64,000 nucleotides of DNA from Syncephalastrum monosporum B8922 (Eukaryota > Mucoromycota > Mucoromycetes > Mucorales > Syncephalastraceae), in contig JNEN01001014.1 of assembly GCA_000697355.1 (NCBI GenBank), positions 186,001 through 250,000 of the forward strand. Reading direction: 5' to 3'. The notes beneath the pieces were generated by a model that saw nothing but the letters and a program-made list of their open reading frames with translations, had not been told where the DNA came from and ran no database searches. Shown here in pieces: positions 17,963 to 51,577 of the stretch; the first letter of the stretch is position 1, and each line of letters opens with the position of its first letter. Made by a program: the position numbers and the translations under genes.

Positions 17963-18335
17963 GAGAAATTTATTTCTTTTACTGCTGTATTGCAAGCATG
18001 TCCACCGGAACCAAAACTGGTGCAGGGACTAAACAACTAATGACTATCGTAATACAGTGAAGGTTTCATGGGACATGTGAGTAGATTGTTCCGCAGATGA
18101 TTGAGATCAAATCAATGTTATCATACATACCAAGTGTTTATATGTAAAAAAAAGAACATCAATTTCAAAGGCACCGATGCTTCAGAACGAATGGCCCGAA
18201 CAGCAAGCAACTGTGAAAATATACATAAGCACGTATACATAAGAGCCTGCAGTCCAAAGAAGTGTGTAACTTGCCTCCAAAGGAGAGTAGACTGCGGGGC
18301 AATTGCGGTCAGCGAAGCAAAGGGACGAGAAGGAG
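17963..18335 (+). repeat. Left terminal inverted repeat (373 bp)
   Basis: The left arm starts GAGAAATTTATTTC and ends near AGCGAAGCAAAGGG. An incidental ORF across it (from 18101) also appears in the right arm. It is a by-product of the repeat, not a gene. Confidence 0.9.
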
Positions 18336-19762
18336 GAGAAGGGGAGGGACTAAAGCATGTGTTCATGTCTCATATTCGTTGTATAGGCACAAATCTGTTT
18401 CACTTACAGGCAGAGGAAGAAGCGGGAAAAAAAACCTCTGTGAGCGGGGAGCAAGCGAGAGGAGGAAGAGGCGCGAACGGAAAAGACAGGAGGACAAGCG
18501 AGGAAGAAGATTGCAAGCTAAGTATACATCATAAAAAAGTTATTTATGTCCAAGACTCGATGGGACGGCTTACTATCATACACATCGATGCAGTTGGAGG
18601 CGTGCGGCCGGTGGAAGAGGGACTTTAGGGACGCGGTGGTCTATGGTGGCGCTTATTAGTTTATACTTGTAACCATAATCCTTTCGTATGTGCTTGCCAG
18701 CAGGAAGACTTGACCAGAGTAAAGAAGAAGAAAAGTTAGATGTGGGAGAAAACAAGAGACCTTCTATGAGACAGACTCACTGATGAACTTCTGTGCGATT
18801 ACATAAATCGCGTCTGCCAATGGAAAAAAGAACGCGGAAGACAAGACCCCGATGAAGATTGACGCCAGGTACTTAATTCGCGTTTCAGAGGATCCATTGG
18901 CCTACTTTGCCATCACGGGGTTCACGGTTATTAATGAGAACGAAGGACCGCCTGAAAGGGTGCTAATGCCATATGTGTTTCACGGAAATGGTGTCAAAAG
19001 CAAAAATTCGTCTGCGTTCTCTATATCTTGATAGACGAAATCCGCAAATTCAGGCTGGAAATGTTAAGCGTTGATAATCCCTGATGGTCCTTCCGTTAGC
19101 GCAAATGGCCCAATATTTTTCTGACCTCATTACTGTCGCGAAAATCTACAGGCGACGATAGCCGTCTTTTTGCTGATGATGCTAATTTCCTTCTCAAATA
19201 GAACCGCACGTGCTTCTTATTCTGCGTCTCATGGAGTCTTCTGTCCAGCCAGTGCCATTCTTGTAATGCGAACGGTAAGATAAACTTGTCCGAAGACTTG
19301 ATCCACTGGGTTTATAAACTATAATAATTTAAAATAGTCGATATAATGCCACCATATTTCCGAAGTGATCCTTGCATCTTTGTATACATCAGCAGTTATC
19401 TTCATGCTGTTGAGTATACGTAATCGATTTTTTTCATTCATTCATTGATAATAAATATATTACAGTCAGATTTACAAAATCGCAGCTGCCGAAGGCTGTC
19501 TTATGAATGCAGACTAGTTAAAGGAAACGATCACTTCAAACAGAAAACCGACGGCAAGAATGGTCGTACCCGTGGCCAGCGGATAGTAATTCCAGGTCGC
19601 ATCGTACTGTTTCTCGTGGAGGGTCAGCCAAACACGTTTCTGCATCTTGGGCCACTGCATATACTGCTCGCCCGACTTAAAAGATATTGGGAAACATTCA
19701 GATGTTTACAATGATTATATTCATCGCCCATGGGCTTCAGTACTTGACAAAATGACTTGACA
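18336..19762. other. Internal left part of the element, no gene recognised
   Basis: 1.4 kb between the left arm and the Fanzor stop codon. It starts with a purine-rich tract (18336-18520). The remainder is AT-rich with only short ORFs. It could contain the 3' UTR of the nuclease and, by analogy with TnpB elements, a guide (omega) RNA reading toward the left end. I cannot identify such an RNA by eye. Confidence 0.45.
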
Positions 19763-22700
19763 TCAACGTCGAAAAGGAGCCACTGGCCTACCCAGGGGGT
19801 CACGGGCCATCGTCACCCCTATTAAAGCAATATTGTACGCCGCCGCGACGTCCCGGTTTCGGGTGGGGGTCTTGCGGCCCGGGCATCTAACATTATAGCA
19901 TGTCATTGCACCGTTCGACGCCACCAGCTTGCCGTTACGGCGATACACTTGGGGCCGGACCAGCTCATGACAGAAACAGCAAGATTTGCTACTGTTATAC
20001 TCCGGGACGGTCACCAGTATACTCTTCTCGGGTGCGTTGAGGTTCTGTTTAAGCTTGAGCTGGCCTCCACGAAGGTGACCCTTGACGGGGGAATTCAAAG
20101 GGCTCCACGACCCGAAAAAGAAGATGGCTTCGTCCGTTTTGCCTAGGAAGCGCCTGAATAGAGAAGCGAGTCGTTGTTCGAAAAGGGCACCCAAGACTTC
20201 GCGACTTTTGGCTTCCTTTTGGCGTCGGCGTTGTTCCTTAGCGGGATCTGCATGGGGGCGTCTTTCCCGCCGAAGCTGATGTTTCCGTGCACCAGTGGCT
20301 ACGTGTTTTTGCCCCGCTTTGTAGTGGCATGTGCGAAAATGAGTGACAGGTGGCGTGTCGGTGGACAGGCAAGACTCCAACGAGCGCTCGGTAACGGTGG
20401 CGGTGGTCACCAAGCCGGGGTCGATGCCCGCAATGCCGACGGTTTTCTCGCCCTTGGTGCATTGCTCGATCAAGTCCCGAATTCGCAGCTAAAGTGAAAG
20501 TTGAGATATGTCTGCTACAATAATGATTCTTTCGTTTACCATATCTGCATCCTCAAATGCTGCTTCTGGCTTGGGATTGTTGAGAGCACGCAGCTGCGAA
20601 CGCTTGTCGGCAAGGTCTTTCAGAAGCTTTGTAATATCATCATGCAGGTCATTCGCCGTTGTCCGTGCAGCTCGGAGCTTGACGACGTAGAGCTCCGGGT
20701 CCGGTGTTCGCTGCTTCTCTTTCAAGCGATATTCATATGCAAGTTCAGAGCGCTGCAGACAAGCGGTTTTGAAAAGACGCTTCGCCTCGACGAGTTGTGC
20801 TCTGACTGCACCAATCTCGTCTGATATATGCTGGGCTTGGTTTTCAACGTCGGCTGACTCTTCTTCTGGCCTCTCTTCGGCAGACGGCGGGACTGCCTTT
20901 CTCTTTCTCGGCCTGGACGCTTCCTCTGCGATTGGGGCTCTTTTTTGCCCGGTCACCTCGGTTGTTATCCTCTTACTGCCGAGGATTCTTATACTCCACT
21001 TGTTGACAAAAGTGAAGCGAAATTCTTGCTCCAGGCCGCGGTCCTTGAGCACTCGGTCTATATAAGGAACATCGAAAAATGCCGCAAACACGTCGCGACG
21101 GCGGTGAAGAGCGACATGGGTACTGGTAAAAAAGCCACCGTTAGGGTCGGGCATGTCGTGAGTATCCCGCATGAGCTCATATAATGCTTTTCCGTCAATG
21201 TGGATCGCGCGAGGTTGCGAAGTGTTTGGCTCAATGTACGTGGTTTGCAATTTTTGTTTGGTTGAGGCGAATGGTACGAGAGCTTGTGCGATTGTTGCTA
21301 TCGGAAGCATGTTGAAGATAGTAGGTGCCGGCTTTTCGTCGCCATTGGCTGTACGCGGCATATAGGGGCGCAACTGGTTCAAGATCCTGGCGAGAGTCCG
21401 GCATTCCAAGCTGGTTGGCTTCGTGGGCTTGTGCGCAGCTTTTCGAACTGCCTCAGGCGTTATCCGTCCGGAACCTGCCTTTAAAAGCTGCATACCGATG
21501 CCGCTCAGAATTCTGATTCTTTTGTTGCTGCTTTCGCCGTTCGGAAAGTCCTCACCCTCGTCTTCCACGTCTTCCTCCGCTTCGACGCTTTGTTCCGTAA
21601 TCACCTCGGCGCCCTCGACCTCGGCGCCTTCCTCCTCGGCACCTTCCTCCTCGGCACCTTCCTCCTCGGCAGTCTCCACTGAGTGGGCCGCGAGACTTTG
21701 CAGCTTCGTCTCGAGTCGATTCATAATATTATCGATTGGCTTTTTGTGCACAAACGCCATCAGCAGTTCATGGCATGCAGACTTTAGTGTAGTACGGCGG
21801 TTGCGGTGTATTTGACGAGGTCGCTGCTGCGCCTTGACGGCCCGGGCTTCGACCTTTCTTTTGGCAGCAGCAGCATAGTTAATATGCCGTCGAACGCGTC
21901 CTTGACAGAGATTAAGGCGCAAAGCTGCTATAAGTAGGGCGCGCAGATCCTTCACATGTCTCTTCCACGTCCACAACTTTGAGCACGCTTGGTGGACCTC
22001 ATTAACTGCAGCCATAAGACACCCTACATGTTTGACTTCTTCGCTGATACCGTGGCCCAGTTCGCGTAAAATCTCACCGCGGATGGACTCAAATATGGGG
22101 CTTTCTTTCATGCTTCTCGTGGGCGCACCAACGCAACCTGATGATTTATTTTTCAATATTTTGATCTTCCAGAGCTTAGATCAAATAGTCCATTGACTTA
22201 CCGGATAAAATATTGGAGAAATGCACCTGTGAGTAGATATTTGCACCTGCTAGACCAATATCCGGTGGCGCGACGCGCAAGACGGTGTCGGCTTGTCCAA
22301 AATCGAACTCGGGCGCCAAGTCTTGCAGATCGAGGAGCATTGGCCGCTCACGGTAAACTGAACTCGTGACACGGCCTTCTGCGATAATCTTTGTCAGGTG
22401 TTGTATACACAAACAGAGCTTGTTCATCAGACGGTGAACGCGCTGCTGCTCGTTGGACATGATGTCGTTAATAACGCTGCTGTCCAGCAGTCTCTCATCT
22501 TTGCGAACGATCGAGTTCAGAGACAGTGTCACCGTTCGCAGGCTATCAAATGTATGAACATATGTCATTTAGGCATGCACAGGCGTTCAAGCTTACTTTA
22601 ATGTCTCTTCTTCTTCAGGCTGCTCGCCCACTGAGCCAGGTTCGGAGTCAGATCCAGAGCTGCAAAGACCAAGTATTTTATGTGAGATGGTATAGTTCTG

Positions 22701-23670
22701 CTTTCTTTTTCACAAATTTCATACTCACTCGTCTGAATCATCAGGCCCCACCTCGTAGGCTTCCTGACTGTTGAATTATGAGGTGAGAGGATGTTTTTCA
22801 AGACATTTTCCCATACTTTATCCATTTTTCGGTGAGAAACGATGCGAGCATGGCGTCATATTTCTGTTTGCCGGTCATAGTCTGCTGACCAGTCTCATCC
22901 TCCCAGCGCAGGTCCTTGTAGCGAACTGAAAGCCACCCTGGATTCTTGGGTTTGGTCGCCATCTGACGCTCAAAATTGTCGCGGACAGCGGACAGGACTC
23001 TCGGTAAGGTCTTCTTCTTGAGTTCATCGTCGATAAGTTTATCTGCTGCCATATCAAACGTTTTCTTTTTCGACCGATGCAGCACTCGAGCGGTAAATTG
23101 CTTGTTAATGTACTTTTCGAGCTCCTGTTCAATGGCCTTTTTCATCTCTGCCGGCGTAATGTCCACTTGCAATTTCGCTTGCTTGACTGGCTTGCGCTGG
23201 CCAGGCTGACGCATTTTTGCTGCAGGAGGCGGGGGTAATGCTGGGGAAGGAGAAGGACGATGTGGCGGCGTTGGAGGTATGTAATCCGGGTTGACCTTCA
23301 GGTTATACCACATACAGGTGCCCGAAACCGTATCAACATGGCACAGATAGGCGAGCACCTTCTTGGCAGGCTTAGGTGGTTCAATCATCTGCGCTTTTTT
23401 TCTAGAGGAAAAAATGTAAAGCCGAATCGAGTACAGTATAGCAAACTCGATTAGCACATCGATTGACCGTAGACGCTTGACTTCATCATCGCCAACGCGG
23501 AGATGGGTTATACTAAGACCACCGTAGAGATAGCGCTCGAGTTGGTCTGTCGCAGATTCGTAATCGATCTTGAGCCCACTACGTCCTAGGAATTTGGTCG
23601 TTTTCTTGAGCGAGCCTTTCGCGACCGGTTTCTCATTCGCCTTGATATAGGCCATGTGCACTAGCTCCAT
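19763..23670 (-). CDS. Fanzor (eukaryotic TnpB-like RNA-guided nuclease), apparently intact
   Basis: Six exons join in phase: 23670-22817, 22767-22729, 22659-22597, 22542-22202, 22137-20540 and 20488-19763, giving 1206 residues and a stop codon. The C-terminal exon holds the TnpB/Fanzor core: RuvC-I AGIDPGLVTT (Asp988), RuvC-II VTVPEYNSSK (Glu1128) running into the zinc ribbon SCCFCHE (Cys1135-1138) paired with CYNVRC (Cys1162/1167), and RuvC-III NRDVAAAYNI (Asp1178). All catalytic and zinc-binding residues are present. Upstream lie a Pro-rich linker in exon 1, short acidic exons, and a repeated EEEGAEEEGAE tract (about residues 600-620) in exon 5, which otherwise forms helical sequence like the recognition domain. 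At about 1200 residues it is long compared with TnpB (about 400). Fanzors use an RNA guide from the element end to cut DNA; that activity is inferred from the family. Confidence 0.85.
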
Positions 23671-26430
23671 ATCCTCTCGCGGATGGTCGTGATGTCCCCC
23701 TCGCGAATTGTCGTAATGTCTCGAGGTGGCACCATGGCATTGTTAATTACAGTCACCTTTGGAGACGTGTTCAAATCATATTGTGCAACCATGATGGGTT
23801 CAGCAAAAAGGATAAAAAAAAGATGAAGGAAGAGGGGGACCTGAACGTACGAAATCAGTTTTCTGATATGTTCCACATCATGAAAGTCACGAATAAATGA
23901 TATACGTAATTATCCACAACGGTTGATGATGATCACTTCCTAGGAAATCCGTACTCCACGCATCATCATAGACTTTTCTTTATTCTTTCACAGGCTCCAG
24001 GAAAGCGATATAGGTTTCATTATAAAATCTCGTTTTCCAATGGCTTAATACACAAAATAGAAAAGACGGGAATCTGCGCTTGATCAACAATTCAAGACAA
24101 AACTATCAGCTAGTAACACTGCTCTCAAACTATGAAAATTTAAAAATAAGAAGGATTCAAATGTGAAACTGCTATGTGAAAAATGATGAACGTGAGGAAA
24201 AGGTGAAGGTCAGTCGTGACCTGGAAAAAAAGTAAACACAGCATAAATCAAGTAAAGAAATGTCGTGTAACGCTTTATGCTAGACAAGCAGATCGGTTTG
24301 ACATTTACATTTTACTGGTGAAGCATAATGAGCTGCAGATTCAACCCTTTCCATCTATAGATGGTTATATAACAGCTGGGAAAAAATAGGATATATGGCT
24401 ATGTTAGATTGAACAGTCTTCTCACATTTCTTCGGTAAAAGACGCCTGATATGTTCCGGGCTTGATGGAAAAAAAGTAGCTGACGACATGAAATATGCAG
24501 GAAGATATAAACATCGCTGCGAAGCTTGTTCCGTAAAAGGCGTAAAATCGAGATTATACCGACGGGTCATGTAGGACAGGCGCAATCCCAAAACAACGAA
24601 AATAAACCACACGTTCTCGAATCGCACCTTTGGAGATATGATGATCGCTTTCATGTCTAGAGTAAGCTCTGTTTTACACTGGAATCCAACGCATTTGGAC
24701 CTTACCAACAGTGTTTCTTTTAGGTGTCTTGATAATGGCCCCTCCAGCCTATAAAAATGATATTGAGTGGGCTATGTGTACTATACCTGTAGGCTCTTTT
24801 CGAGAGGTACCCGAGCCGAGTCCGAGAAAATAAGCTTCCGTACACATGTATCTACTGCAAGGCTGCTCATTTTCGTTTTTCTTCTCAATCTTCTTTTCCG
24901 CCTCGATAAAGTCTGCTGCAAGGCTGCTCCCTCCTTTGATTCGCGAAATCGTACTACATACATCTATGTCGTAATACAAACAAGTATATTTGTGAAAGAC
25001 CTATCCTTATCCTCGTTTATTACTCTAGTAAAGTACGGGAATTGAATAAAAGGATACAATCTAACGGTCACTATCTGACCTATCTGGAAAAGCAAACCTC
25101 ATTACGCGTCGGTATATTCCTGTGAGGATTTTTAATGAAACACCTGACCCTGGTATGAAAGCAGAACTTTACCAATCGCAAACATAGCTATATCACTGCA
25201 AGGCTGCTCAACTTTTTTTTTGTGCCTGACTCAGCAACCGAAGCAATCTGAATCTGGCGTAATATGTATGTGTATTCTTAGGCGCAGTATGCATGCATGA
25301 ATAATATTAGGCGGAGCACATTTTACATTCCACTTTGACCGCTGTAACGTTGCGCAGGCGAGCAACATGCAGATTTCTCTTTTTTTTTCTTGGGGGGGGG
25401 GGTACAAGGGGCGCAATATAGGTCATAACTGACAACACTTTCTGTTCCGATGACCCAATATAGATTCAATATTCTTATATCTATCGGTCGTCGTACTGCT
25501 GTTTGTCAGGACTTCACATAGCATATATCTTATATAAAGCTATACTACTACTTGCTCATCATACGTTGGTATCGAATGCAAGTCCTAGTAAAAATAACAT
25601 ATATGGCGAGTCTGGTCTAATTAAGACATAGAAATAATACCTTTTACACCAGCAGCTTCGGATGTTCCTTTTGTCGTCCTATATTTGTGTGATAAAGAAA
25701 TTATATGAGAGCATTAAAAGCGAAGAATATGTATAGAGTGCTGCTCAGGAGGAGAAAAGAGTGACTTATTTTTACACAAAGCCATCGGCACCTTGTCAAT
25801 ACTGACATCTCACCCATCTTGCCGAATATTTCGAATGTTTGACAGGTGTTGCAGCACATTTACTAGTTTATCCTTCCGATGTTAACAAGAAACAAGGCTA
25901 GTTCCGATTGTTGTATCATTTCAGGTACCTGTTTTCTCGTCTTTACTCTTATTGGTACGCGTAAATTTGATTGTATGCATCAAAAGATCGCCGACGACGA
26001 GGATCATTGACGCATCAATTCGTATATAAAGGTGCGGTATCACTCACATGTGAATCATTCTTTCCTTCCTATTCATCATCCTCAAGACCAGATACTAGCA
26101 AGTATATCAATATCCAAGGCTGCTCGAAATATAAACTAACATGGGTAGCGCGGGTCTTCCTGTAGTCAACCTCAAGATCCGTTACCACCAATTGTCCATC
26201 CGCTGCATCAGGGCGTGACATCGGCGGCATGAAAGTAATTCTAGTCGACAAGAAAAGCTATACAAATCACTGACTGTCATGTAAACTACAGCTTGCTATA
26301 TCGCTGTTTCGTCCCTACTTGGCCTGCTCCATCGTTCTTGTCTCTTTCTGAGCTTTTTTTTTTTCCTGCCAGTGAGTGAACAGCCGCCACTATGAAAATC
26401 AGTGATTAACATAATTTTATCGTAGCTTCA
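23671..26430. other. Internal right part of the element, 2.8 kb without a recognised gene
   Basis: AT-rich sequence upstream of the nuclease start. It has scattered short minus-strand ORFs (24355-24708, 26069-26251) that are not clearly coding, a G10 run at 25395, and four copies of a 14-base motif (separate entry). It probably contains the nuclease promoter. The ORF at 24355-24708 is the best candidate for a second small gene, but I recognise no domain. Confidence 0.45.
24855..26125 (+). repeat. Four dispersed copies of CTGCAAGGCTGCTC
   Basis: Exact or near-exact copies occur at 24855-24868, 24916-24929, 25196-25209 and (CCAAGGCTGCTC) 26114-26125, all in the same orientation in the right third of the element. 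I did not find them in the left third. Repeated short words inside the TIRs are a common form of transposase or host-factor binding site. Function here is not shown. Confidence 0.65.
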
Positions 26431-26803
26431 CTCCTTCTCTTCCCTTTGCTTCGCTGACCGCAATTGCCCCGCAGTCTACTCTCCTTTGGAGGCAAGTTAC
26501 ACACTTCTTTGGACTGCAGGCTCTTATGTATACGTGCTTATGTATATTTTCACAGTTGCTTGCTGTTCGGGCCATTCGTTCTGAAGCATCGGTGCCTTTG
26601 AAATTGATGTTCTTTTTTTTACATATAAACACTTGGTATGTATGATAACATTGATTTGATCTCAATCATCTGCGGAACAATCTACTCACATGTCCCATGA
26701 AACCTTCACTGTATTACGATAGTCATTAGTTGTTTAGTCCCTGCACCAGTTTTGGTTCCGGTGGACATGCTTGCAATACAGCAGTAAAAGAAATAAATTT
26801 CTC
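26431..26803 (-). repeat. Right terminal inverted repeat (373 bp)
   Basis: Reverse complement of 17963-18335. Outside the match the next bases differ (GC here versus GT on the left), which sets the element boundary to within one or two bases. Confidence 0.9.
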
Positions 26804-46043: not shown

Positions 46044-48194
46044 TAAGTCTTTTTCAGTAGCACTAGAGTGATATACTGTTTCTATACACTGAGATTACAC
46101 ATGATGTATGGTGTGAGGTTTTATTGATTTTGGGTCAGCTAGTTGTTGTCAATCATGCATGCGGAGTTGTACGTCATTTCACTCATGCTACCACCGAAGC
46201 GCTCCGAATAGTCCATTAATTTCCAAGCGAATGGTATCTGCGATCCGCAGGCAAATCAACAAGTGAGACAACGGTGCATTCGCAATATTCCAGGCGGGCT
46301 TCAATCTTGAGACGTACAATTGTTGCTGGTCTAAGGCGTATTTACTTGGTTGGCATGGAAAATCAAAGTTTCTCCAACAATCTCAACAAGGCTTCTAATG
46401 GTTATAACTATGCAGCGACTGCCAAATTCATGAGCGATTTAAATCGATGACACGCAAACGTAGTCCGATCATGATACGAAGCACTGTTCTTCTTCATCCG
46501 CTGCTCCACCCCATGAAACTGGTTTCAGTATAGCAGTTTCTCATTACGAGCGCGTTAGAAGCTCCATGGCAGCCTTGAGAGTCACACAATACATGACAGG
46601 ATGCTTGGCCGGAAGTGCACCGCTTGACAGCATCCCTTTCGTAACATCCGTCGAGAATGCCGTGCAAATCGGATTCGTACCTTTCTACAATAGTCTCGAC
46701 TTGCGTATCTGGAGTGATGAGGAAATACGGAAAGAACTCTACTGCCTCATGTTGTATCGTTTTCGCAGACTCCAAATGGATGCTTTATTCATGCACACAT
46801 GTAACTGAGTACTTCGTAGAATTGAAGGCAACGAAGAAAGAATGCAAAAGGAGACGAATCCTCGGAAATTGATCTTTAGATGCTACACGAACTGATGCAT
46901 AAAATTGGACGAATCGCTCGTCGACTGCTTGGTTTTTTTTTTTTTTTTCGTTTCCTGTTGCTTTCATTCCTTCATCCTTCTCCTTTGGGTCATTCCTTTT
47001 TAATACACGCTTCTTCTTTCAACCCAATTTGCCCGCGCAACTGCTGTTAATACTTCTTTTGAATGGTCGACAAAGGATACAATATAAAAGACTAACTCGC
47101 ATATCGGGGAGTTGCACATTTGTATTATGATTGTCTCAATAAATAGAAAGAAAGCAGGGGGAGCTACTAACAAGGGACAGTACGACGAGAGCGATGACGA
47201 AGATCCTCTCAATAAAAGGGTGAAGACTGCTCAGTCTCAGGGGAGTATCTCAGAATTTCGCCTTCTTTTTTGAGAATTCATTCATTCTTTTTTTCTTTTT
47301 TTTTGTCTTTTCGCCATCACTCACTACTTTCCGTCTTTTCAACCATTCCTTCCCTAAACATAACTCACCCCCAAGAATAGTCTTAAGTAGCCCAATTTCC
47401 CTTTTCTTCATATACGGTGTCCTGCGCATTGATATACTTTCCAACAACTCAAGTTCACATCCTGTTGTCTCCGTTGGAACAGTCTTCTCCATCGACAAAT
47501 ACAAGCCGCTATCTTAATTCTCAGGAGACGTATCAGCGCGTCTATCAAAGCGAGTTCCCGCGTCTCCGAATTGCCGCGTGGGGCTGCTAAATGGGGCCGC
47601 ACAAAAGGCAAAATCGAAGGGGAGCGTAAGATAAAGATGCCCAAAAACCGGCTTGCCCCCCTGCGTACCCTAGAGCACAAGGCGCGAACCATCAGCCTGT
47701 TGAGTGCCCTGGGGCTGGAGACTGCTGCTGTCAATGGCAGTCAAAATGTTGAAAGCAATCTGTTGGGAAAGCCGGCCGTGCCTCAGTCCCTTGAATTGAA
47801 ATAGAAATGTGGCCTGATCACAGGAGGATAAAGGTAAGTCCAAAGAAGATCAAAGTTGATGACAATTTCTCCCCCCAATGCGTGACCATGCCAAATGACT
47901 TGGATCTCATTTTGCGTAATAGTTTCATGAGAAAATCACTTGCAAAAAACACAAGGAGTGGAGAAAAGTGAAAGCTACAGAATCTTCGTGCAAACAAGTT
48001 CGTGATAAAGAAACTCTGGCGCCTACGACCCAAAAAGGTACCACAGCAACCTCTCCAGCTCACAGCCTCTTCCACATCGAGTCTACGGTAGATGTCATGT
48101 AAGTCATTCGTCGGTTTGCTGTCGAATGTCTGGTGCTGACCTATTTCTTTCTTTTTCTTTGTTACCTTATAACGTTATCACCATGGCCTGTTAG
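46044..48194. other. 2.1-kb stretch with possible 5' exons
   Basis: Contains T-tracts (46931-46948, 47285-47303) and an open stretch on plus (about 47521-47803; basic, RGAAKWGRTKGKIEGERKIK) that could be an upstream exon of the gene starting at 48195 or of a transposon protein. Another exon-like frame ends at a donor near 48098. None could be joined with confidence. The minus ORF at 46494-46775 is unsupported. Confidence 0.35.
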
Positions 48195-49635
48195 CCAAGA
48201 CACCTATGGTGTGCGATTCGAAGTTCGGATGAAGCTGCCTATGATGCTTGGATGTCATGGCACGATATTCGATATTATCAGGTAAAGAGCGATATCTAGA
48301 TTACTTTGTAAGTTTTAAATTTGGTCCTGACTATATGTATTAGGGGTTATGCCTTCGACGCCATCCAGAATGTTTCCTGGATTCGGCGGGAGTCCTCGCT
48401 TCTTGGTTGCTGAAGCAGTCTGAAGCCGCCTTGTTTGCCAGCGACTACTCTCGGCGCTTGGGTCTGGTAAGAATGGAGAGGAAGACCTGCTCCTTGTTTG
48501 CCGCTCTTGCCGTTGTGGTGTCCGGATGGTTCTCCCGACCTAATGACAACCACAAAGGTTGGAACGACGTCTATCAAGACCAATACCATAGTCGGTACCT
48601 TGGATCGAACTTGCTGTTTTCTCGTCGGTTCGGGGCCAGCGAGGCTCACACTTTTACAGTTTGACAAGATCTATAGTGACACTGTGTCGTCACAGATCTT
48701 TGACAAAGAATGGGCCGAGGTGCTCAAAGGTCAGTCCAGAAGAGAAGCCGACTATCTGCGTAGTGACTTGCAAGTCGCTATTGCTCCGGTGGTGGGTGAG
48801 TCAAGGTAAGTGCATTATATAAGTATATCGAGAATTGTAACTCTGACATGATTCTTTTTTGTCCTTTAGTCTGGCTGACCATGCCGTATACCAAGCAGCC
48901 CTTGAGCTCGGTGAAGGTGTGTTGTCTCCGGAAGCAGCCGAAATCCTACGCACATATGCGACCGTTGGTGCATGTGAGCACTTTGCAGAAGCTTTCTTTA
49001 AGGCATATGTTAAGGAAAGCTCTATGCTATTAAAGAAAGCTGCGAGAAGATTTATTGGTCCGCATACGACTGACTTCGAGTTGGCACACCTTGCCTCGGA
49101 AGAGATCTTACAACGAAGACTGCCTGTAAGTGTCGAAAGCATTATATTTAGAATCTATACCAAGTGACATTATATATATATTTAGGACTCGTTGTTGCAA
49201 GCCGACACACCCAGACGATGCAACACGCTCAGTGCATATGTACTAGACTTTGTTTTCCCTACACCTGAACAAGTCAACAATGCCGGGTCAGTAACAAGTT
49301 TGATTCGGCAACGCGGCATATCAAATCTTGCGGTTTCCCGGGTAGCATACTTGCTACTGGTGCAAGCGATGTTAAATTTGGGCCGACCTAGTGAAGCAGC
49401 AAGACTAGTGCAAGCTATATCAGATAATGGTGACATGTACATCAAGATGACCTTCCGGGTAGACAAGGAGAAAGCGGTTATCACGCGCAATGGCATCTTT
49501 TGCGCCGCATTATTACCTGCTGCACAAGCTTTCGACTCGCGAGCAAGATCCACCGCCTGCAGTGATATTCTCCCAGACCTTCCTCTTCGCGTGCATACAT
49601 CTAGTGAATGGATCGCGCCCTTTGTCACGACCTAG
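48195..49635 (+). CDS. Unidentified multi-exon protein, 5' end unresolved
   Basis: Five exons join in phase with canonical GT-AG introns: 48195-48281, 48344-48466, 48558-48805, 48870-49125 and 49186-49635. They give 387 residues and a stop codon. The protein is largely helical (SLADHAVYQAALELGEGVLS, AEILRTYATVGACEHFAEAF, LIRQRGISNLAVSRVAYLLL, LGRPSEAARLVQAISDNG). The last block resembles a helical repeat. I recognise no family. The intact frame across four introns argues for a real, perhaps still expressed, gene. Its position beside the decayed Fanzor and inside the inverted duplication leaves open whether it is a host gene or transposon cargo. Confidence 0.55.
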
Positions 49636-49641
49636 AACGAA

Positions 49642-51577
49642 CACATTCTCGTTCGAGAAGTACAAGAACGTCTTTGCTGCTTACCATCAACAAATCAACA
49701 ATGACGAACAGTGCATGGTGGCACCGGAGCGGCGTCGACTACCCCACGCGCGCTCGAGGTCATTGTTGGCTCGAGAGATGGGGACTTCTTTTGTCAACTC
49801 GCTGACGGAGCGCTTCCAGTCCCGTGCCCTCAAGTATTTTCAGTACGGTCTCCTGGAGAGCGACGAGCACCCGGATCCGCAAGCAGCCAAGAGCCTCGCC
49901 AAGTACGCATATACGCGCTTCGCAGACGGTGAAGTTGCCCCAAATTGGCCAGCCGCTGTGGAGCAAACGGAAGCTTTGCAAGGCATCGTCAACGACATTG
50001 TCGACCGTGCAGTAAGGCTCTTGGTTGGACGACCAGCATCTCCCCGATCACTTCGCCAAGGTACGCAAGATCATCGTGACCCCCGATCTCGCTTTACCTG
50101 GTTCCGTCTCAAGTCGAAAAGATTAACCGCACCATTCGCCATTTTTTCCGACCACGCCGGTTCGCCCGCGTGCACTTTGCCTTACGAAAGGCCACGGTCG
50201 TATCAGCGCTTCCCACACTGGTAGCAATAACGATGCCAACGCGTGCGGCCCTCAGGGAACTCAACCTGCTGCAATATGAGCAGCGCGGAGTACTACTCGA
50301 TTGCTCGGTTCAAGAAGACAACTGCACGTGTAGTATAGAAGTAACAAGCAACATTCGCGCTTCGCCCTCCGTCTACACGCTCCATCATGAGCTACGTCAT
50401 GGTCTCGTGAATTCTCCGTGGTATATGGACATCTCATTGGCGCCACGTCTTTGACGAGGCTCCGTTTCAGCCAGACACCATTATCCGAGCCATTCGCCTG
50501 GCGTGCAGTCGCGCTCGTCAAATTTCATTTGAGCCTGCAACCCATTACCCGTACCTTGCACTATATATAAGTGCGCACGGGACTAACAGACTCTCCAACT
50601 CTGACTCCCTGGTTACCGTATGGACATAATCCTTTTCAGACACATTGTACTCAGACGTGTGCAGCAAATAAAAATGGACAGCCGTTCCCCACACACACCG
50701 AAAAAAAAAAAAAAAGAAATGTACACTCAAAACTTTGTCAGCTTGATCTTCTCGTTAACGGACTCCGCAACTGACCAGCCCAATTTGCTCGTCTACGCGC
50801 CTTCTATGGCCAGTTCATGCCACAACGTTGGCTTCGGTATTACAAAGGCAGACAGACGCTGAGGTGATCAAGGTTTTCAAAGAACGGCGGCAAGAAAAAT
50901 CAGAGGCTAGAAAGATACTGAACACAGGGACCGACCACCAAGGCGTCGTAGACGAGGAGCAGCAGCAGGACCAGTAGCAGGACCAGGAGGATCTCAAGGA
51001 AAGGTACGTACTTGTATTTCCTTGCATCTTGACTATGAAATGCGATTCGTTATAATCTTACACAGTAATGACGCAAGTACCTCCTCTGCGGCAGCGCTTT
51101 TCATATATTACATTTCCATGATATAAGGCAGCGTGTGTTCCCTCTGAACCTTTTCACATAGGCCTGCAAACAAAAAGAAACTCCCGAAATGGCGTTAAAA
51201 GCTCTTCAGCCCATCTGCTCCTGGCCAAGTCCCGTTTGTGGCGCTCGGAAGTGTTATCTTTGATCATCACGATCGGCATGTAGTATTCTGGCCTATCTGG
51301 TCGTCTTTTAAAGAAGCTGAAGGAAGTAGAGCGGTGCGCTCTGCTGGTCGCTGTTTCCGTCGACGAGTACTGTACCTCACAAGTCCGGTCACGGTGCAAT
51401 GACCGATGCCGAAAGTTCGACCCCAAATCTTTGATTATACGCTGCACAGCCTTCTCGCTTCACGGTCTTCTCGCTTGGCAACTGTGCGGGCAGCCCGATA
51501 TTAACGCCAGTCGAAACATTCGGCGCATCGCGTTCAACGAGGCCTTGAGTCGCGGTCAACCTCCGATTTTTGACTAA
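49642..51577 (+). pseudogene. Decayed Fanzor of a second lineage
   Basis: The 3' end (51316-51577) reads LLKKLKEVERCALLVAV, then SVDEYCTSQVRSRCNDRC, a disturbed finger region, and DINASRNIRRIAFNEALSRG. This matches the Fanzor/TnpB RuvC-II Glu with TSQ, the zinc-ribbon, and RuvC-III (D-I-N-A-S-R-N-I). The first ribbon Cys reads Arg, and the usual NRD before NASRN is QPD. Upstream fragments in different frames, such as FVNSLTERFQSRALKYFQYG (49790-49850) and RAFYGQFMPQRWLRYYKGRQ (50790-50850), fit an N-terminal and central Fanzor region but need several frame changes. No RuvC-I DPG was found. It is called a pseudogene. The residues differ clearly from the intact copy at 19.8-23.7 kb. Confidence 0.6.

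Follow-up and report, generated by a model that had tools for sequence, protein, structure and literature searches.

How can an element that carries a Fanzor nuclease and no recognisable transposase be mobile? The question is raised by an 8.8 kb element at 17963-26803 of the window, by which we mean the whole 64,000-nucleotide stretch of the Syncephalastrum monosporum B8922 genome that was analysed (contig JNEN01001014.1, positions 186,001 to 250,000). The element is bounded by inverted arms, and the Fanzor gene is the only one recognisable within it. We read it as a non-autonomous DNA transposon, probably of the MULE/MuDR type (MULE, Mutator-like element), that carries a Fanzor1-type nuclease and is moved in trans, and we give this reading a probability of about 0.68. 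The MULE/MuDR-type assignment is made because the combination of a probable 9-bp target duplication, terminal inverted repeats (TIRs), a Fanzor1 gene, the lack of a transposase and a Mucorales host matches published MuDR-type cases.

Shared termini and a probable 9-bp duplication

The left arm (17963-18335, plus strand, terminus GAGAAATTTATTTC) and the right arm (26431-26803, minus strand) represent one arm sequence, here called T, of 373 nt each. They are identical at 372 of 373 positions with the sole mismatch at arm position 364, so that the near-identity claimed in the original prediction holds, but not the initial figure of 100%, which was due to rounding. The inverted identity ends abruptly at position 373, beyond which the sequences on the two sides are unrelated, and a longer, diverged TIR was rejected on finding similarity no higher than the shuffled range. 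The terminal 82 bases of the arm match eight places in the genome, all eight of which were scored: the two window arms, C19, C68, C92, C154, C104 and C161. Alignment revealed a ninth terminus at the left end of C161, and C128 holds an inner portion of T that lacks the terminus. Identity to the window arm amounts to 96% at C19, 93% at C68, 74% at the right end of C161 and 55% at its left end. As judged by eye, the six other loci share this terminus but differ in their flanks, and the arms, proposed from the window alone to be terminal, are therefore genuine ends.

One of these loci, C161:54059-59270 (5.2 kb), is a complete, old copy that retains both inverted ends and a Fanzor relic; the relic is broken, with 16 stops when its codons are roughly aligned and 527 of 1207 codons lie in gaps. 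Both ends of this copy are adjoined by 9-bp repeats, GAGCACCCA and GAGCACCAA, alike at eight of nine bases; with the boundary set by trying flank offsets 0-4, 0.22% of 20,000 random flank pairs align as well. From their sequence and position these repeats are a probable 9-bp target duplication. Target-site duplications of MULEs measure 8-11 bp. The remaining lines of the flank search were put down to chance, namely two at C161 (one lying off the copy, the other repeating the same site with a shift), three at C104 and two at C122, and only the C161 site precedes a T terminus. LINE- or Penelope-like transposition leaving one-ended copies was dropped as the leading interpretation on account of the two ends and the 9-bp repeat of C161.

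An intact Fanzor gene

The Fanzor gene (19763-23670, minus strand) is open throughout in a six-exon GT-AG intron model and encodes 1206 amino acids. From the 5' end of the gene, the modelled exons, all on the minus strand, lie at 22817-23670 (exon 1), 22729-22767 (exon 2), 22597-22659 (exon 3), 22202-22542 (exon 4), 20540-22137 (exon 5, with a glutamate-rich repeat at about 21604-21678) and 19763-20488 (exon 6, which holds the RuvC-I DPG, a shifted glutamate, a C4 zinc finger and the RuvC-III RD). In the protein the Fanzor fingerprint comprises the DPG at D988, E1128 placed six residues ahead of the first cysteine of the zinc finger (CxxC), and the RD at D1178, with 140 residues between D988 and E1128. 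A DPG in RuvC1 together with a glutamate six residues before the zinc finger has been described as the fingerprint of Fanzor proteins (PMC10711439), and their overall motif as D-x(125-275)-[TS][TS]xx-C4 zinc finger-x(5-50)-RD (PMC3627910). The window protein has the overall motif when the internal spacing of the zinc finger is set by us; that spacing makes the protein miss the strict search expression of PMC10711439, whereas relaxing it yields a match. Together, the arms, the open frame and the fingerprint uphold the proposal of a long-TIR element in which Fanzor is the only recognisable gene.

Comparison with a broken sister copy of the gene, at C68, gave a dN/dS of 0.40 at a dS of 0.144 (782 of 828 codons used, 43 being gapped and 3 containing stops), a value that averages one intact and one broken lineage: the C68 gene is interrupted by 3 stops and by several frameshifting indels, and the window frame is intact. 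The codon comparison suggests that the intact lineage has probably been under selection for much of the time since the split from C68. Genome searches with exon 6 and with the whole protein yielded no second intact copy of the window Fanzor family. Of the ten places matched by exon 6, one is the window itself and two are overlapping matches at C161. A C125 fragment, 37% identical, contains two stops, and the other six places are 29-36% identical; the protein also has partial matches at C3 (41%; the longer match has nine stops), C141, C73 and C185. The six places at 29-36% identity to the window exon 6 (C167, C91, C79, C78, C122:155809 and C185; L029-L032, L034, L035) appear to represent a second, distinct Fanzor-like family, whose C167 member has a 599-aa open frame in which GTDYG replaces DPG.

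Public protein databases, Mucorales proteins included, returned no relatives of the window protein at E 0.001 (8000 candidates) or at E 10 (3355 candidates), both the word filter and the database size limiting these searches. Matching against the PDB gave two chance-level hits (E 1.3 and 1.5), neither of them a Fanzor, the presence of the PpFz1 chains in that copy of the PDB being unchecked. An AlphaFold2 model of exon 6 had a mean pLDDT of 42, too poor for a fold search.

A chimeric left end and homogenised arms

The right end of the window copy is read as native because its inward continuation also lies inside the C68 (91%) and C161 (70%) copies. The left end is chimeric: the arm is fused to a piece of a dispersed repeat, R (18330-18925, plus strand), the two being joined in a GA-rich stretch, GAGAAGGAG, and this junction is common to C19. 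With 40 of 199 candidates scored, R is matched at 40 or more places outside the window, one of them in C19; C68 and C92 supply three further matches. Full copies, as examined at L038-L047, measure about 1.1 kb. One end of R starts TAACTAGCCTACGAAATTTCG with a palindromic stretch, and on its other side the reverse strand carries a tRNA-like box, GGTTCAATTCCCGGG. A likeness of R to the inner right arm, noticed by eye, was rejected on testing as being at chance level.

The two nearest copies cover different parts of the window element. C19 aligns with its left 1.6 kb and, by inversion, with the right arm; C68 aligns with the right 5.9 kb and a short piece of R. This division, together with the microhomology at the arm-R junction and the missing target duplication of the window copy, would suit a recombinant chimera, in which a C19-like left end was combined with a C68-like right end and the arms were homogenised afterwards. 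Yet C19 and C68 are both truncated and each could have lost the other half, and the identity between the two window arms (99.7%) exceeds that of either arm to C19 or C68. We consider such a recombinant origin of the window copy possible but somewhat doubtful. Beside the C19 copy lies a host gene with a 917-aa frame, whose product is 99% identical to an unnamed database protein; a Syncephalastrum racemosum protein matches it at 91% identity across 69% of its length and other Mucorales come next, which places the host in this order.

The same comparisons bear on the age of the element. In steps of 250 bases its body is 3-22% divergent from C68, and its divergence from C19 is 10-14%; the arms diverge from those of C19 and C68 by about 4-7%. 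Since the window arms match each other better than they match the C19 or C68 arms, they were homogenised after the copies split, and their near-identity points to later homogenisation rather than to youth. The description of the element as young and recently active is thus not supported, given the missing target duplication, the clear divergence of the nearest copies and an arm identity that postdates the split.

Probable mobilisation in trans

We scanned 23 open reading frames (ORFs) of at least 60 aa, each lying within or overlapping 18336-19762, 23671-26430 or the right arm, ORFs opposite the Fanzor exons being left out. At E 1 none matched a Pfam profile for a transposase, recombinase, Rep or helicase. 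Such matches as there were, the best being F-box-like (E 0.0027) and FAM198 (E 0.0047), all fell under their cut-offs. The reported lack of a transposase domain inside the element is thereby confirmed for these frames, and mobilisation in trans, which had been offered as one of two options, becomes the probable one. The other option, an unfamiliar enzyme hidden in apparently noncoding DNA, is unlikely for 23671-26430 on the upstream side of the Fanzor gene. Compared with C68, 25449-26803 is 91-95% identical and 23949-25448 only 78-89%; many indels within 23671-26430 have lengths not divisible by three, and substitutions are spread evenly over the three codon positions. This codon-pattern test is weak, given that the exons are only mildly skewed in the same comparison and the C68 copy is broken, and it suggests that the stretch is noncoding. 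Part of this DNA, 24440-24877, is probably another repeat, with similarity to 24586-24877 at seven other places (74-75%) and to 24440-24584 at three of those (71-75%).

A source for the missing activity was sought in the rest of the assembly, where a single MULE transposase, at C197, exceeds the Pfam cut-off and a second match, at C141, falls below it. None of the eight T ends lies on C197 or C141, and no transposase gene was seen inside a T end. The partner transposase may be absent from the assembly, may have been lost from the strain, or may sit between unlike ends. The C197 locus itself (46925-50205, L048), close to the contig edge, has an OTU-like frame (PF02338, E 0.033, under its cut-off) next to the MULE transposase gene. 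At C92 (L020:6500-10000) a single T end directly follows a broken, Ty3/Gypsy-like rve integrase and an R copy. An integrase-based element was rejected in view of C67 and C179, the only two relatives of this integrase examined, which as read from translation continue as chromodomain Ty3/Gypsy-type polyproteins and have no T ends in 1.8-2 kb; the C92 integrase is, from its context, probably a captured or nested fragment.

Several results weigh against a MULE-type, Fanzor1-carrying transposon moved in trans. The 9-bp duplication is known from a single copy, C161, with one mismatch and a boundary chosen among offsets 0-4, and the window copy has none (flanks TCAACCCGT and GCATATCAC, P 0.80). None of the five single-ended copies (C19, C68, C92, C154 and C104) has a partner end within the 20-30 kb around it, and the C197 MULE gene has no T end in the surrounding 6.4 kb, up to the contig end. 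On the protein side, the C-terminal part matches Pfam PF07282 (TnpB/Cas12f zinc-binding) at E 7.8e-5 and 23.2 bits, under the cut-off of 26.3; NCBIfam guided_TnpB (NF040570) matches at E 0.0015 and 17.8 bits, far under the cut-off of 100; and the best hit of a PDB profile search is Cas12f at E 0.05. The NCBIfam models are intended for bacterial and archaeal genomes, and a curated TnpB/Cas12f match is supporting, not defining, for Fanzor1; the Fanzor identity rests more on motifs than on profiles. Finally, the terminal 200 nt have no excess RNA structure (z -0.73 to 0.33 against shuffles preserving single-base composition only).

With one duplication known, the assignment to MULEs could also be mistaken in favour of another superfamily with duplications of about 8-9 bp. 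Target duplications of this length are made by hAT, P and Merlin elements, and an unnamed group would serve equally for a Fanzor-carrying non-autonomous TIR transposon. We think this unlikely. It gains from the single known duplication and from the fact that no transposase was found with T ends, but the probable 9-bp duplication, TIRs, Fanzor1 gene, lack of a transposase and Mucorales host fit the published MuDR-type cases. An autonomous element, moved by an unrecognised recombinase in 23671-26430 or by Fanzor itself acting as transposase, is very improbable: the 91-95% identity of 25449-26803 to C68 would favour it, but the 23 ORFs contain no transposase-like family, the substitutions and indels against C68 follow no codon pattern in the weak test above, and TnpB and Fanzor proteins are not known to transpose unaided.

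A proposed mechanism

Under the MULE-type reading, and by analogy with known families, a MULE-type transposase encoded elsewhere would bind the conserved terminal 30-50 bases and move the element by cut-and-paste. The Fanzor guide RNA would be read out of the element end on the 3' side of the gene, that is, the left end or arm. Guided by this RNA, Fanzor could cut the emptied donor site, which lacks the element, and repair templated by the sister would copy the element back. The left end would have been rebuilt, with an arm copy joined to the R piece, in an ancestor common with C19, and the two arms would later have been made alike through gene conversion or gap repair.

A more speculative extension, which we regard as improbable, is that the guide RNA may be readable outward from either of the two T arms, so that Fanzor cutting of an emptied or half-emptied site leads repair to copy one arm onto the other. 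If this were true, Fanzor would maintain and homogenise the ends needed by a trans-acting transposase, and the near-identity of the arms on an otherwise old copy without a duplication would be accounted for. A search for known RNA families found no Rfam match at E 1.

Comparison with known Fanzor elements

The literature search found no report of a Syncephalastrum Fanzor or of a Fanzor-MULE transposon; the only paper that it gave for Fanzor, Mutator and Mucor together was PMC3627910, and the window family is absent from these results. In that work, Bao and Jurka (2013) described ROr-4, PBl-3 and MCi-4 of Rhizopus, Phycomyces and Mucor, which have MuDR-like TIRs, 9-bp duplications, Fanzor1 and no transposase. 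What had been taken for an undescribed element family therefore belongs to a kind already published for three Mucorales, of which it is a new member, and its interest as a new kind of element is modest because of that publication. The likeness extends to a Fanzor1-type gene, TIRs, a probable 9-bp duplication, the lack of a MuDR transposase and the Mucorales host. The window element differs in its 373-nt arms, in the missing duplication of the window copy and in its chimeric left end, the comparison being by description and not by TIR sequence.

To the known Fanzor elements it adds one whose ends are defined and whose gene is intact, together with several dead relatives. A selected-looking Fanzor gene in an element encoding no recognisable transposase offers a natural test of whether Fanzor helps persistence.

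Three further systems offer partial parallels. MCi-2 of Mucor circinelloides is likewise a Fanzor element with one side conserved and the other variable between copies, but it is described as having no recognisable TIRs and 11-12 bp duplications (PMC3627910). The Fanzor1 transposon of the insect virus SfAV is also a TIR element with Fanzor1, and its TIR and target duplication are predicted to form part of the guide RNA, which was sequenced there (PMC10711439); the arm is therefore the place to look for a guide RNA in the window element. The SfAV element differs in its 13-bp TIRs and 4-bp duplications (PMC3627910) and in its virus host. PpFz1 of Parasitella parasitica (PMC11423790) is, like the window protein, a Fanzor1 nuclease from the Mucorales.

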